Shown here one piece after another: positions 5,666 through 50,318 of a DNA stretch of 64,000 nucleotides; position 1 is the first letter of the stretch; each line of letters starts with the position of its first letter. The notes under the pieces are model-generated. The model ran no database searches. It saw only the letters and a list, made by a program, of their open reading frames with translations, and was not told the DNA's origin. Source of the stretch: an uncultured Clostridia bacterium (lineage in GTDB: Bacteria > Bacillota > Clostridia > Lachnospirales > Cellulosilyticaceae); assembly GCA_937981575.1 (NCBI GenBank), contig CALJNR010000026.1:62001-126000 (forward strand), given 5' to 3'. A program made the position numbers and the translations under genes.

Positions 5666-6712
5666 TTATTCTATTTTGGTATCAAGTCCTGCTTCTGTTG
5701 TTTGTGCACCTGGCAAATTTGATGCTTCATTTCTTATAATATGAATTTCGTTATAAGCTTCAGTCTTTTCAAGCTTCATCGCTGCTGTTAATTCAGTAAG
5801 TTCATTTTCAGCAAATCTTTGCTTAATACGTTTTCTGCTGTCTTCTTTAATCTGATTTTCATCACCCATTTGATGATCTTCAACCTTTATAATATGATAA
5901 CCATATGATGTTTCTACCAGTGTTGGATAAACTTTCCCAACTTCACCTGTAAAAGAGGCTTCTTCAAATTCTGGAACCATCCGGCCTCTGCCAAAAGTAT
6001 ATTCTCCACCTTTATCTTTAGATCCGGGATCTTCCGAATATTTCTTCGCAAGTTCTGCCATATCTTCGCCATCTAAGGCTCTCTTTAGTACTTCTTCAGC
6101 AAGTTCTCTTACCTCTAAAGCCTTATCTTCCGGCAGCGCCTGCCCCTGCTCATCCTTATTCCCAATAAGAACATGCTTAACAGTTACTTTTTCATAACTG
6201 CCTCTTATAAGTTCTATCTCCGCGTTAAGTTCTTCTTCATTAGGGACATAGCTATCCCCTATTTTTTGAACAACCTTCTCTATAAGACTGCCATAGCTAA
6301 AAAATTCCTCTAAATCTTTTTGCTTAATATTAAGCTGTTTAACAAGTTCGGGTTTGTTTTGTACAATATCTTTTGCATTATTTCTAATATCATTTTTCTC
6401 TTCTTTGGATAATTCTATCCCTAGTTCTTTAGCCTTTTGCTTTGCGGCCACCGAAAGCTTTATTGAATCTAAAGCTCTTTCCTTTGCAACATCTTCTGTC
6501 TTTTTGCCTTCGAGCTCCATATCCCATATATTAGGTGTAAGGCTTTCAAATTCCTGCTGGGTGGTCCATAGATATATTCTGTAGAGTGACTCTGATATTT
6601 TTTCATTACTAATAGTTACTACTACCGGATCTGCTGCACTGCATCCTACGAGCGCTATAGTGATCATCGTTGCTGTTAGTATCCATGCTAGTATTTTCTT
6701 TACTCTTTTCAC
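5666..6712 (-). CDS. PrsA-like peptidyl-prolyl isomerase lipoprotein
   Basis: Membrane-anchored extracytoplasmic foldase. Residues 1-24 form a lipoprotein signal ending in the lipobox ALVGC. An N-terminal SurA-like helical region (about 40-170) precedes a parvulin/PpiC domain (about 175-285) with VTVKHVLIG, YSEDPGSKDKGGEYTFGRG and SYGYHIIKVED. A charged tail follows. The start is a GTG 14 bases after AAGGAG. It has its own promoter at the 3' end of mfd and a 5' leader that holds the conserved structured element described at 6754-6846. The insertion between mfd and spoVT is the usual place in this gene block. Confidence 0.9.
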   Translation of the reverse strand: MKRVKKILAWILTATMITIALVGCSAADPVVVTISNEKISESLYRIYLWTTQQEFESLTPNIWDMELEGKKTEDVAKERALDSIKLSVAAKQKAKELGIELSKEEKNDIRNNAKDIVQNKPELVKQLNIKQKDLEEFFSYGSLIEKVVQKIGDSYVPNEEELNAEIELIRGSYEKVTVKHVLIGNKDEQGQALPEDKALEVRELAEEVLKRALDGEDMAELAKKYSEDPGSKDKGGEYTFGRGRMVPEFEEASFTGEVGKVYPTLVETSYGYHIIKVEDHQMGDENQIKEDSRKRIKQRFAENELTELTAAMKLEKTEAYNEIHIIRNEASNLPGAQTTEAGLDTKIE

Positions 6713-6753
6713 TTATATCTCTCCTTATAGTTTATCTTGCCCTTAATATAGTT

Positions 6754-6846
6754 TTCACATCTTTAAATTTAAGTTGTCTACAAATAATACATGATGCGAA
6801 ACTACCCTGAGAAACAACTTTGCTTAGATGAATGACTTAAGTTTAT
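6754..6846 (-). ncRNA. Conserved structured RNA element, copy A (unknown class)
   Basis: Shares about 70 of 92 positions with 20018-20108. On the minus strand it can fold as follows. An outer stem pairs 6835-6846 with 6762-6774. A 7-bp hairpin GGGUAGU/AUUAUUU (6801-6807 with 6782-6788) closes a 12-nt loop. A pseudoknot of 8 bp pairs loop bases UUCGCAUC (6793-6800) with the tail GAUGUGAA (6754-6761). The hairpin pairs only if read on the minus strand, where copy B keeps it with different bases. The element lies in the leader of the prsA-like gene, 27 bases before its ribosome site. Confidence 0.6.
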
Positions 6847-6886
6847 TTGTTGTTACCCTATTGTTAATTAAAGCATTCTTTTTTAC

Positions 6887-6915
6887 ATTATAGCCTAAAA
6901 CAATCAACTCTTCAA
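6887..6915 (-). promoter_or_regulatory. SigA-type promoter of the prsA-like gene
   Basis: The minus strand shows TTGAAG, 17 bases, TATAAT. The -35 overlaps the last codons of mfd. The predicted transcript starts near 6880 and includes the structured element before reaching the GTG at 6712. Confidence 0.65.
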
Positions 6916-19071: not shown

Positions 19072-19887
19072 TTATCTTTCCTGCATACTGTAAATGTCGA
19101 CTGCTTTATTGCTTTCATCCACTGTATCAAGCCATAAAAGGGTTTTAAAATCATCTACCAGCTTCTCTCTTGGCTCTTTAGTTGCCATTAGTACGCCTAC
19201 GCCTACCAGCTCAGCTTCAAATTCCTGCATCAAATCTATAATCCCTTTAGCGGTTCCTCCAGCCTTCATAAAGTCATCAATAAATAATACCTTTGATCCT
19301 TTTTTAATTGCCCTTGTTGAAAGACACATTGTTTTAATTCTATGGTTGCTTCCAGTAATATAGTTCATGTGTATAACAGTTCCGTCTGTCAGCTTGCTTT
19401 GATTTCTGACAACAACCATAGGTTTGTTAAGAACCATAGCTGTCATGAGTGCTATAGGGATTCCTTTTGTTTCGACTGTGATGACATAATCAAATTGAAC
19501 GTGCTTGAAAAGACTCGCTAGTGCAATGCCTATATTTTTAGATATATTGGGAGAGTATAAAAGATCATTTGTATAAATATAACCGCCAGGGATAATTCTG
19601 TCCGGCGTGTTAATAAGCTCACACAGAGTTTTTGTGAAACTCTGCATCTGCTCTTTGGTCATAAGCGGATTGTAATAAACCCCTCCTGCTGCTCCTGATA
19701 TCGTTTCTATTGTTCCTATCTCATAGTTTCTAAAAATATCTTTTATGATATCTAAATCTTCACTAATGGTCGATTTGGCACATTTAAAAATGTCACAAAA
19801 ATGAGTAAGTGTAAATATTTTATTTGGATTATTGGTTAAAATATTGGTGATGACACTTATCCTATCATGCTTTTGTACCTTCTTCAT
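19072..19887 (-). CDS. purR: Purine operon repressor PurR (phosphoribosyltransferase type)
   Basis: Repressor of purine genes in Gram-positive bacteria; PRPP binding releases it from DNA. The N-terminal winged helix (residues 1-75: ISVITNILTNNPNKIFTLTHFCDIF) is followed by a PRT-fold domain with the PRPP-binding loop VLFIDDFMKAGGT. Length 271 is standard. It is unrelated to the LacI-type PurR of enterobacteria. A probable PurBox pair lies just upstream (19936-19978), implying autoregulation, and an identical box lies before purA. Confidence 0.95.
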   Translation of the reverse strand: MKKVQKHDRISVITNILTNNPNKIFTLTHFCDIFKCAKSTISEDLDIIKDIFRNYEIGTIETISGAAGGVYYNPLMTKEQMQSFTKTLCELINTPDRIIPGGYIYTNDLLYSPNISKNIGIALASLFKHVQFDYVITVETKGIPIALMTAMVLNKPMVVVRNQSKLTDGTVIHMNYITGSNHRIKTMCLSTRAIKKGSKVLFIDDFMKAGGTAKGIIDLMQEFEAELVGVGVLMATKEPREKLVDDFKTLLWLDTVDESNKAVDIYSMQER

Positions 19888-19978: not shown

Positions 19979-20017
19979 TTATCCAAATTGTTTAAGGACA
20001 ATTTTAATCTCATAGAT

Positions 20018-20108
20018 TTCACGTCTTTAAATTTAAGTGTTCAGGATGGTGCACGATGTGAAACCACCCCCAGAAACAACTTTTCATAAATAAATAACTT
20101 AAGTTTAT
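20018..20108 (-). ncRNA. Conserved structured RNA element, copy B (unknown class)
   Basis: Second copy of the element at 6754-6846. On the minus strand the outer stem pairs 20097-20108 with 20026-20038. The hairpin is GGGUGGU/ACCAUCC (20063-20069 with 20044-20050) around a 12-nt loop of the same length as in copy A. Loop bases UUCACAUC (20055-20062) can pair with the tail GACGUGAA (20018-20025) with one mismatch. It lies between divergent purR and murC, upstream of the purR PurBoxes, so it may be a separate small RNA or a part of a long purR leader. Confidence 0.55.
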
Positions 20109-20242
20109 AGATTGTTTCTCTATAAAAATATGTTTATTATTTTATTTCTGTTATATAATTATAAAATACGCTCTTGCATATTATGATAAGAGTATATTAA
20201 TATTTAAAACAGAATATATCGTTCATTGAAAGGATCAAATGT

Positions 20243-21625
20243 ATGACAAACCTTAATTCCTTATTCAATAAGAAAAAAATACACTTTATCGGTATTGGCG
20301 GTATCAGTATGAGCGGACTCGCAGAGATTGTTCATAACAGAGGTTTTATTGTAACAGGCTCTGATATGAAAAGCTCTGAAACGACCCGCCATTTAGAAGA
20401 TATAGGCATTCAAATATATTACAGCCACAGTGCAGAAAATATAGCTTCTGATGTGGATTTAGTCGTTTATACTGCTGCTATTGCAAAAGATAATCCTGAA
20501 CTTGCTGCCTGCAGCGAAATGCATATCGATTCTGTTTCCAGGTCAAAATTTCTTGGACTTATTATGAAGGATTATGCTTTTCCAATCTGTATTGCAGGAA
20601 CCCATGGAAAAACCACTACAACTTCAATGCTGACTCATGGCCTGCTGGCTGCTGATCTTGATCCTACCGTTACAGTCGGTGGAATACTTAAAGCTATAGA
20701 AGGCAATATCCGCATAGGAAAATCAAATTACTTTATTACAGAAGCCTGCGAATATTGCAACAGCTTTTTAGATTTTTTCCCTAAAATCGGAATTATCCTC
20801 AATATCGAAGAAGACCACTTAGATTATTTTAAAGATATCAACCATATTCGTGATTCCTTTCAAAAGTTCGTAGCGTTGATTCCAGCTGATGGGTTTTTAG
20901 CTATTAATGGAACCACTGAAAATCTTGCTGAGCTTTTGGCCCCCGTAAGCTGCAAAACAGAAACCTTTGGTCTTAACCCAAGATTTAACTGGTATGCTGA
21001 AAACATCACGTATGATGATAAAGCCTGTGGTTCTTTTGATGTTTATTATAATGGGGTGATTAAAGGACATCTTACACTCAATGCTCCTGGCATTCACAAT
21101 GTGCTTAACGCCTTGTCTGTATGTGCTGTATGTCATTATTTAGATATATCAATCAATGTACTTAATGATGGGCTTATACATTTTTCAGGTGCGAATCAGC
21201 GTTTCGAAATCAAAGGGAAAGTACATAACATTACGATTGTGGATGACTATGCTCATCATCCGACAGAAATCGATGCTACCCTCAAAGTCGCAAATGCTTA
21301 TCCGCATCATAATCTTTATGTAGTCTTTCAGCCCCATACGTATACCCGTACAAAAGCATTTCTAAATGAATTTGCTGCTTCTTTATCTCAGGCAAAAAAT
21401 GTAATAATCGCTGATATTTATGCTGCCAGAGAAAAAAATCCTGGGGATATCTCAGCCGAAGATATTGTCAAAAAAATCCACAGCCTTGGCAAAGAAGCTC
21501 TTTATATTTCTGATTTTGACGAAATTGCTAATTATCTGCTCGAACATGCAGTTCCTAACGATCTTATCATTACAATGGGAGCCGGAAATATTAATCAAGT
21601 TGGTGATATCTTGCTCGGAAAATAG
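20243..21625 (+). CDS. murC: UDP-N-acetylmuramate--L-alanine ligase
   Basis: Adds L-Ala to UDP-MurNAc, the first peptide step of peptidoglycan synthesis in the cytoplasm. Order of motifs: N-terminal UDP-binding IHFIGIGGISMSGLAEI, central ATP site AGTHGKTTTTSML, NIEEDHLDYF, HNVLNALSV and the C-terminal DDYAHHPTEIDATL. Length 460 is normal. AAAGGA stands before the ATG. It is a single gene ended by a terminator at 21699-21735 and does not sit in a dcw cluster. Confidence 0.97.
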   Translation: MTNLNSLFNKKKIHFIGIGGISMSGLAEIVHNRGFIVTGSDMKSSETTRHLEDIGIQIYYSHSAENIASDVDLVVYTAAIAKDNPELAACSEMHIDSVSRSKFLGLIMKDYAFPICIAGTHGKTTTTSMLTHGLLAADLDPTVTVGGILKAIEGNIRIGKSNYFITEACEYCNSFLDFFPKIGIILNIEEDHLDYFKDINHIRDSFQKFVALIPADGFLAINGTTENLAELLAPVSCKTETFGLNPRFNWYAENITYDDKACGSFDVYYNGVIKGHLTLNAPGIHNVLNALSVCAVCHYLDISINVLNDGLIHFSGANQRFEIKGKVHNITIVDDYAHHPTEIDATLKVANAYPHHNLYVVFQPHTYTRTKAFLNEFAASLSQAKNVIIADIYAAREKNPGDISAEDIVKKIHSLGKEALYISDFDEIANYLLEHAVPNDLIITMGAGNINQVGDILLGK

Positions 21626-35680: not shown

Positions 35681-35699
35681 TTATCGCATATAAAAAGTA

Positions 35700-35783
35700 T
35701 AAGGCTGGCTTCCCTACGCTAGTATTAACTAACAGGTTCAAAGGGTCAGGTTTTAACCTTCTCAACCAAACGGTCCCCCCGCA
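35700..35783 (-). promoter_or_regulatory. TPP (THI-box) riboswitch
   Basis: The minus strand shows the conserved pieces in order: GCGGGGGGACC, TTGAGAAGG, CCTGACCCTTTGAACCTG, AATACTAGCGTAGGGAAGCC. These are the pyrimidine- and pyrophosphate-sensing helices of the TPP aptamer. It stands upstream of thiC-thiD. Confidence 0.95.
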
Positions 35784-35808
35784 ACACATAGATATTAAAC
35801 TAGTAATT

Positions 35809-42898: not shown

Positions 42899-42940
42899 TA
42901 AAAAACCCCTTCATCTCCTTAAATTAAAGAGACGAAAGGG
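42899..42940 (-). terminator. T-box leader terminator of leuA
   Basis: The minus strand reads CCCTTTCGTCTC, an 11-base loop, GAGATGAAGGGG, then six T. This is the terminator half of the T-box switch. Confidence 0.9.
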
Positions 42941-43270
42941 AATTTTCGCGGTACCACTCTTTTTCACTCCATAGCGAAGTGCGCTTTTTCGATACTGATA
43001 AATAGGATAAGTGCTTTAGAAATAAAAAAACTCCTATCTCCAAAGAGACAGAAGTACATTCTGCTAAACCACTCTTGTATGCCATCATTGACTCTTGATA
43101 CAGGTACCCATATTCACCGATATCTAGCCATAGTAACGGTTGGCATCCGTCTAGGCCTACTTATTTCAGCCAGCAACTCCAAGGCGAGTTCATTATCTTC
43201 TAAATCCTGCTTCACACCATCCAGCAGGTCTCTGACATTTATAGGATAACTACTATTCCTTTTCTTAGTC
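42941..43270 (-). promoter_or_regulatory. T-box leader of leuA (tRNA-Leu sensing)
   Basis: The T-box sequence AGAGTGGTACCGCG lies at 42946-42959, next to the terminator, and can pair with uncharged tRNA acceptor ends and form the antiterminator. The 5' half holds the stem-I region, with GGTGTGAAGC and ATGAACTCGCC; the CTC triplet there is at the place where the specifier codon is expected, and CTC is Leu. The leader is about 415 bases long in total. Confidence 0.92.
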
Positions 43271-43304
43271 TTTAAATTGTATATTTGATTGATTAATGAG
43301 TTTG

Positions 43305-48346: not shown

Positions 48347-48518
48347 ATTATCACCTCCCCCTTATTTTTTCCCTAAAGCCTAAAGATATTACAAAGCTTA
48401 AAGCCTTTTTTATAATATGCAATATAGAAAAACAATTATAAAACCTAACTTATTCAGCTACTTAGAGGTGTTTCTCCAAATGATTTCACAGTAACTAGCT
48501 TTGTGGTTAAGTTAAACT

Positions 48519-50318
48519 TTAAACTGTGAAATCTATAGAATCTTCAAGTTTCTTATATTCCGTAATATCACGAATGGTTGCAACCAGCGTTTTTGTTTCA
48601 CTGCTTATCAAAGTAAGTCTAGCTTCAAACCATCTTGTTCCTTTTGGTGTAACCACCTCGTATTCAGCGGTTTGGGCTCCTCTTGTCTCAATAACCATTT
48701 TGATCTTTCTTCTAACTTGCTCTGTATAGCTGCTATCCATAATATCCCCAATTGAAGAAGCATCTCCTTTTAGAAAAAGCTCTGCCAGATTATCATGATC
48801 ATTAGCCCATATATTTAAAAACCTGCCCTCTTCATCCAGTTCGATGATAATATCATCTATTGAATTGATAAGTGCTTGCAGATGCGCTTCTCTGCTTCTT
48901 AACTTATCCTGAACTATAAGCAGCCTTTTATTTGCATGTCCAAGTTCTGAACCCATACTCACCAGATGCTGCGCTGTATCTTGAAGTTCTTTTACATAGA
49001 AATGCGGTACCTCTTGAAAATAGTCCCCTTTACCTATTCTCTTAACCATCCCGTTGATTTTAAGCAGAACATTTGATATTTTTCCACCTGTTTTGTAAGC
49101 GTTAAAAGAAATAAATGACAAAAAGACAAAATAAAAAGCAGCTAAGCCTAAAAGCATAAATAGTCCTATATTAAATAACGTTTTTCTCATACCCTCTACT
49201 TCTGCATAAACGTTTTCTTTCGGAACAAGCACTAAGAGCTTCCATTCAGTATCTTTAGCAGTAGCCCATGATACTAATTGTTCCTGCTCTCCTAAACTAA
49301 TACTTGAAAATCCTGTTTCGTTTTTTAATACTTTTTGACTAAAGTCTGTCAGCTGAAGTTTTGTATAAAGGTTAAACTCACTCGGCTTGAAGGTATCTTC
49401 CAGAATAGCTTGCTCATAATGATGATGGGTGAGCTCATCGAGCCCCCAGTCTTCTTCTCGCTTATGGGGCAATGCTAAAATAGTCCCATCTTTTCCAATA
49501 AGCATGCCATACCCCTGCCACGGAATTTCCATCTTAAGTACGCGGCTTATAATCGTACTAACCGTAATATCTATGCCAACAACCCCTTCAAGAAAATCTC
49601 CCCGATAAACAGGCATAATAGCAGATGCCATCCATCCGTGCCCCGCTGGATCTAAATAAGCCTCTGTCCATTTAACTTTCTTGTCAGGATTATGTATAAG
49701 GTCTGCTTCATAATAAAAATTAAATTTGGTAATGTCTATTAAAGGCGTATACTGTGAAATGACATCAAAGTAAGGATAAATAACATTTAGCGAATCAAAA
49801 GTATTGATATAGATAGACGCAGCCAAGGGCTCTGAATAAATAATATCTTTCATTAATTCCTGCTGTGAAAGCATCTGTGCTACTTTAAGTTTTTCTTTGT
49901 CACCAATTGGAACATTACCACTGTAAAATACAGCAGCCCCTCCATTTTTTCTATCATAAAAGCTATAATAAGTCCCTTCCTGCGAATATTTTAGGCGTAT
50001 CCTATCTTCTTCTTCCATAGTGTTTGGCTCCTGCATAGCCTTTGCAGCCTGCTTTTGATATAACCTCGTCATACCAGCTACCCGTGACAGCTGCTCATCT
50101 ATAAGCCTGGCTTCCTGCTGAGCTATTTTAACGACTTCCTGATGGACTGTCTCTTCTAAAAAACTTACGGCCTTTCCTTGTGCCCAATAATTCGAAAGAA
50201 AATAAATGCTTATAAAAGCAACTTCGACTATAATTAAAGGAACTAAGGCGGTTTTTAAGTAAGACCCCCAAATCCATCTAAATAACGTAACAGTCTTTTC
50301 ACTTTTATTCTTTTTCAT
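48519..50318 (-). CDS. Cache-PAS sensor protein without a recognisable output domain
   Basis: 599 residues. A transmembrane helix at about 20-42 and another near 383-408 bracket a large extracellular double-Cache sensor (GWMASAIMPVYRGDFLEGVVGIDITVS). After the second helix comes a HAMP-like segment, then a coiled coil (LIVQDKLRSREAHLQALINSI) and a PAS-PAC domain ending VATIRDITEYKKLEDS. The protein stops five residues later, exactly where a histidine kinase, GGDEF or methyl-accepting module would normally follow. No such frame continues downstream. It is either a sensor that acts through a partner, or a truncated kinase. Confidence 0.8.
   Translation of the reverse strand: MKKNKSEKTVTLFRWIWGSYLKTALVPLIIVEVAFISIYFLSNYWAQGKAVSFLEETVHQEVVKIAQQEARLIDEQLSRVAGMTRLYQKQAAKAMQEPNTMEEEDRIRLKYSQEGTYYSFYDRKNGGAAVFYSGNVPIGDKEKLKVAQMLSQQELMKDIIYSEPLAASIYINTFDSLNVIYPYFDVISQYTPLIDITKFNFYYEADLIHNPDKKVKWTEAYLDPAGHGWMASAIMPVYRGDFLEGVVGIDITVSTIISRVLKMEIPWQGYGMLIGKDGTILALPHKREEDWGLDELTHHHYEQAILEDTFKPSEFNLYTKLQLTDFSQKVLKNETGFSSISLGEQEQLVSWATAKDTEWKLLVLVPKENVYAEVEGMRKTLFNIGLFMLLGLAAFYFVFLSFISFNAYKTGGKISNVLLKINGMVKRIGKGDYFQEVPHFYVKELQDTAQHLVSMGSELGHANKRLLIVQDKLRSREAHLQALINSIDDIIIELDEEGRFLNIWANDHDNLAELFLKGDASSIGDIMDSSYTEQVRRKIKMVIETRGAQTAEYEVVTPKGTRWFEARLTLISSETKTLVATIRDITEYKKLEDSIDFTV

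Follow-up and report, generated by a model that had tools for sequence, protein, structure and literature searches.

A dispersed 115-bp repeat in the leader of a prsA-like gene and elsewhere in the Cellulosilyticum lineage has the features of a MITE, most likely of IS630 type

The window analyzed here, the whole stretch of 64,000 nucleotides from an uncultured Clostridia bacterium, carries a PrsA-like foldase gene with a promoter upstream of it and, between the two, a short palindromic element that occurs three times in the window. The genes and features concerned are as follows.

5666–6712, minus strand: gene for a PrsA-like PPIC-type foldase (PF13616/PF00639), downstream of copy 1.
6747–6862, minus strand: MITE copy 1, full element, defined by the alignment of copies, by flank identity that falls to background outside TATAGA..TCTATA and by an empty site in four sister species.
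6887–6915, minus strand: prsA promoter TTGAAG-17-TATAAT (TTGAAG at 6910–6915, TATAAT at 6887–6892), outside the repeat and conserved in genomes G001–G004 without the element.
20011–20124, minus strand: MITE copy 2, between the divergent genes purR (19072–19887, minus) and murC (20243–21625, plus); the site is empty in G002, G003 and G004.
48423–48537, plus strand: MITE copy 3, from a second subfamily (E=3e-18), overlapping the 3' end of the gene at 48519–50318 (minus).

Alignment of the copies defines a unit of 115 bp, TATAGAGAAACAAC…GATGTGAAATCTATA, with sharp ends. Across 82 aligned copies, conservation is at background level immediately beyond TATAGA...TCTATA, and the flanks are unconserved. 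The TATAGA/TCTATA tips form a perfect terminal inverted repeat, with 95% of tip cells paired, and are continued by imperfect inverted arms of ~35 bp; in copy 1, the 5' TATA is mutated to AATA. A preliminary description of this DNA had reported two similar stretches among unrelated flanking genes. The likeness is real, at ~75–80%, but the extent is 115 bp and not 93 bp: the interval reported then (6754–6846) is the inner part of copy 1, and the 5' arm, whose partner is in the middle, had been missed. Nor is this a two-copy feature, given the third copy in the window and the many in the genome described below. The stop codon of the 599-amino acid sensor-like protein encoded at 48519–50318 comes from copy 3, as do, apparently, its final residues (SIDFTV), so that the C terminus of this protein would be MITE-made.

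The draft genome from which the window comes (3.56 Mb, 143 contigs) holds at least 65 copies, allowing for fragments. With copy 2 as the query, blastn matched at least 41; a consensus query added 10 further places and an end-pattern search another 5, and copy 3 as the query found ~14 further copies, largely of the second subfamily. The end pattern had 31 real matches compared with 0 for a reversed-pattern control, so the copy number is far beyond chance. Genomes of the same genus are also populated, with at least ~40 copies each in G001 and G002 and at least 16 in G003, as is G023, a relative of Cellulosilyticum, with at least 19. Single matches, some of them partial or weak, were obtained in G004, G020, G022 and G028, and the viral contigs contained neither the element pattern nor the transposase. 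No copy examined in the window's own genome sits well inside a called gene. Scattered copies with insertion-like boundaries had been named in advance as support for a mobile repeat, and this is the distribution that was found.

Two loci were compared with those of sister species. At the mfd–prsA site, the element is absent in 4/4 sister species (G001–G004), where prsA and its promoter remain; the exact insertion base is blurred by divergence. At the purR–murC site, it is absent in 3/3 readable relatives (G002, G003 and G004), and the surrounding sequence aligns straight through. TA bounds the copies on both sides, a duplication read from the comparison of diverged species, and the neighboring copies L030 and L031 on contig C1 share one TA, as expected for insertion at TA targets. 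The TTGAAG-17-TATAAT promoter noted earlier upstream on the minus strand is real, but its conservation in the four sister species without the element assigns it to prsA rather than to the repeat. Its presence in 5/5 species indicates that the promoter was already in place when the repeat landed between it and prsA.

Transcripts from this locus presumably include the element as a passenger within their 5' leader, where its hairpins may affect mRNA stability. An effect on prsA is possible; no support was found for selection on a leader effect there. The mobile repeat could also have been co-opted in places, for example as a processing or stability element of the prsA mRNA, a reading that is compatible with our preferred explanation and that we regard as fairly unlikely. 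Insertion between the promoter and the start codon fits it, as do the mRNA effects of ERIC elements and the proposed RNase III processing of NEMIS (PMC2229807), but the insertion is not shared across species.

The consensus pairings of the element are the tips, D (1–4/112–115), and stems A (5–14/45–54), B (23–35/81–93) and C (60–70/101–111). In copy 1, all on the minus strand, they lie as follows.

6849–6858: hairpin A 5' arm, GGGTAACAAC, also within the left terminal repeat.
6828–6840: arm B 5', TTAAGTCATTCAT, in the hairpin A loop; pairs with 6769–6781 across the family and crosses A and C.
6809–6818: hairpin A 3' arm, GTTGTTTCTC.
6793–6803: hairpin C 5' arm, AGTTTCGCATC, mostly the "loop" of the preliminary description.
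6769–6781: arm B 3', GTAGACAACTTAA, in the hairpin C loop.
6751–6761: hairpin C 3' arm, GATGTGAAAAC, the "3' tail" of that description and also within the right terminal repeat.

A and C are side-by-side hairpins of 10–15 bp with complementary loops of ~30 nt, and both appear in minimum-energy folds of the subfamily sequences. B joins the two loops, so a kissing or pseudoknot form is possible. Over 67 copies, 92% of cells are paired in A, 92% in C and 82% in B. RNAalifold predicted zero pairs for the same 67 copies, perhaps because the alignment is AT rich and individual copies are decayed, and stems were scored by counting over the named structure in its place. Cells with changes on both sides numbered 33 compared with 18.1 in shuffles (0/500 reach this), but slid controls (27–38) were not exceeded, so the covariation is modest. 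No clean helix emerged from an unsupervised covariation scan, in which the highest-ranked pairs were real stem pairs mixed with subfamily signal. Clear compensatory replacements occur between subfamilies: stem A changes from CAAC/GTTG to CCAA/TTGG in the G023 subfamily, and in the window's own genome the second subfamily has CAGT/ACTG in place of CATC/GATG in stem C. The unusual symmetric arrangement of two adjacent hairpins, with differing stems remade in this way in separate subfamilies and with complementary ~30-nt loops, might be retained because a single-stranded fold is required for the element's own mobilization or for control of the transcripts in which it comes to lie; we think this improbable. 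Integron attC sites were considered and rejected, as the core motifs expected of such sites were absent by eye.

Neither strand is favored across the family. Mean folding z scores are −2.85 and −2.75 for the two strands, the element strand folds better in 33/67 copies, and G-T and A-C changes number 38/28 in stem A, 28/29 in stem C and 66/46 in B. Strand-neutral folding and changes fit a palindromic DNA repeat, not an RNA made from one strand. The inner hairpin of the preliminary description fared differently from the stems above. Both window copies that it compared can indeed pair 5'-GGGTRGT with a partner across a 12-nt loop, but this is not a family feature: only 65% of cells pair over 67 copies, a value that 117/500 shuffles reach, A-C mismatches (84) outnumber G-U pairs (46), and the hairpin overlaps stem C. 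Other copies thus break it, an outcome that had been named beforehand as evidence against the proposal. They do not break the pairing of loop bases with the 3' tail, which is present in both window copies, as is the AT-rich arm pair.

These observations bear on a reading in which the element acts on the minus strand as a cis-regulatory RNA, whether riboswitch or protein-binding leader, for prsA and further genes. In its favor, copy 1 sits between prsA and a genuine promoter, its minus strand gives a better fold (MFE −19.0, z −1.4) than its plus strand (z 0.04), and some stem changes are compensatory. The family as a whole argues otherwise: the prsA site is empty in every sister species, no gene context is conserved, and the copies adjoin many unrelated genes without orientation bias (16 ++, 16 −−, 12 −+ and 7 +− for flanking gene orientation relative to the element at 51 copies in the window's own genome, approximate values from a simple ORF caller). 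Folding and G-U versus A-C changes show no family-wide strand preference, the inner hairpin does not exceed shuffles, and covariation is both modest and strand neutral. We therefore consider a regulatory RNA very improbable. A search of Rfam 15 at gathering thresholds gave no family match to the element, only chance ones, and relaxed thresholds, applied to copy 1 only, did likewise, in agreement with the earlier remark that no known riboswitch or leader class has this pattern. Rfam does place a T-box leader at 42925–43275 (minus) and a TPP riboswitch at 35692–35790 (minus) elsewhere in the window. Of the three readings first offered, the small mobile structured repeat is the one that stands, and the headline reading, an RNA leader element with a pseudoknot, falls.

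A candidate source of mobility was found in IS630-family elements of ~1.27 kb (1.26–1.27 kb) in G001 and G006, with confirmed DDE_3 and HTH domains, whose ends read TATAGATAAACCA...; G006, from the same genus as G023, carries six copies with these ends that are 99.9% identical. Compared position by position, the MITE left end matches the G001 IS630 ends at 10–13 of the first 14 bases (shuffle p 0.005 to <1e-4 for these 14) and at up to 25/36 overall. In the G023 MITE subfamily, the left end matches IS630 ends at 11–13/14, and one IS630 right end, TATAGAGAAACCA..., has the same first 13 bases as this subfamily. The MITE right end is more weakly related to the IS630 terminus (8–10/14, p ~0.01–0.1). 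The IS630 elements of the window's own genome were rejected as partners, having a different terminus (7/14, p=0.26). In the G001 elements (L202, L204, L206 and L207), the transposase is split over two overlapping frames, which suggests programmed frameshifting, whereas some G006 copies have single open frames of 354–368 amino acids.

MITE and matching IS630 were found together in G001 only; no IS630 partner was found in G002 (100% complete), G003 or G023. The G002 copies are 97–100% identical to one subfamily sequence, indicating recent movement, and the lack of a DDE_3 match there implies that the transposase was lost or that another enzyme acted. No autonomous element with exactly both MITE ends was found, and a search for isolated ends of such a long element gave only ordinary copies, half elements and internal-deletion derivatives of 42–57 bp, the last in G001 and G002. 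Slippage at the short repeat AAACTT, which occurs in each arm, could plausibly have produced these derivatives. Those of 42–48 bp retain the two tips only (L126 2353–2400, L127 2270–2311, L237 1484–1525 and L244 1501–1542); they may have arisen by deletion or may be mobile units of minimal size. The half elements are recurrent, have only positions ~1–40 or only ~83–115 (L120, L122, L138, L139, L124 and L128) and stop close to arm B, on its loop side.

Movement by some other enzyme, for example a transposase that escaped recognition or one of Y1/RAYT-like type that uses the two hairpins in single-stranded form, would account for the recent G002 copies in a genome with no DDE_3 gene, and each half of the element does make its own 10–15-bp hairpin on either strand. 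Duplication of TA is not expected of Y1 elements, however, and TA at both ends together with a terminus match of 13/14 bases points to IS630; we judge another enzyme unlikely.

Taken together, the element is short (115 bp, within <~200 bp), non-coding and dispersed in many copies, with terminal inverted repeats, a target-site duplication and empty sites for two insertions, and its left end, less so its right, matches an IS630 terminal repeat, as in IS630-type MITEs. It is very probably a ~115-bp MITE, and the enzyme that mobilized it in trans was most likely a transposase of the IS630 family (Tc1/mariner-like, DDE_3). IS630 mobilization is the best inference rather than a demonstration, because the MITE and its partner co-occur only in G001 and G002 has no DDE_3 match. 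On this view, the non-coding element, with its TATAGA/TCTATA tips and imperfect inverted arms of ~35 bp, is a DNA passenger that inserts at TA dinucleotides and leaves TA on both sides, and the transposase would recognize the related terminus TATAGAKAAACCA. The two hairpins may have a role in transposition.

By description, the closest known likeness is RUP, the repeat unit of pneumococcus, for which mobilization by IS630-Spn1 has been proposed (PMC2229807, PMC3049150). It is similar in size (~107 versus 115 bp), AT rich and tightly folded, has intergenic copies on the order of 100, targets TA and has ends similar to an IS630-family IS. RUP differs in its host and in that its terminal repeats are described as mutually paired, whereas the lowest-energy fold of the MITE is two separate hairpins, and most genomes carrying the MITE have no matching IS630. 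Also likened by description, the Correia/NEMIS elements of Neisseria (PMC2229807) are non-coding repeats of ~107–155 bp with TA termini and hairpin-forming transcripts, but they belong to another phylum and have terminal repeats of 24 bp compared with 6 contiguous bp in the MITE. The enterobacterial ERIC/IRU (PMC2229807) resembles the MITE, again by description, as a mostly intergenic repeat, 127 bp long, that has TA termini and a terminal repeat contiguous over just 7 bp; its host is different, and PMC2229807 reports no IS partner. The IS630-family IS of G001 and G006 share the terminal ~20–36 bp and TA flanks but are 1.26–1.27 kb long and encode a DDE_3 transposase, so that only the ends are common to both.

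We found no MITE family described for Cellulosilyticum and its relatives in the open-access literature. The ends and distribution of the element suggest a new family of IS630-type bacterial MITEs, an ordinary kind of mobile repeat, with the transposase assigned from terminal similarity. One false riboswitch candidate is thereby removed, with the caution that two structured copies with "compensatory" changes in a single window can be a dispersed palindromic repeat. For the Cellulosilyticum lineage, the result is a well-bounded MITE family with species-level subfamilies, recent copies and a likely IS630 partner group. Evidence that IS630 transposases move MITEs in bacteria has been called indirect (PMC2229807), and this family could be used to test whether they do.
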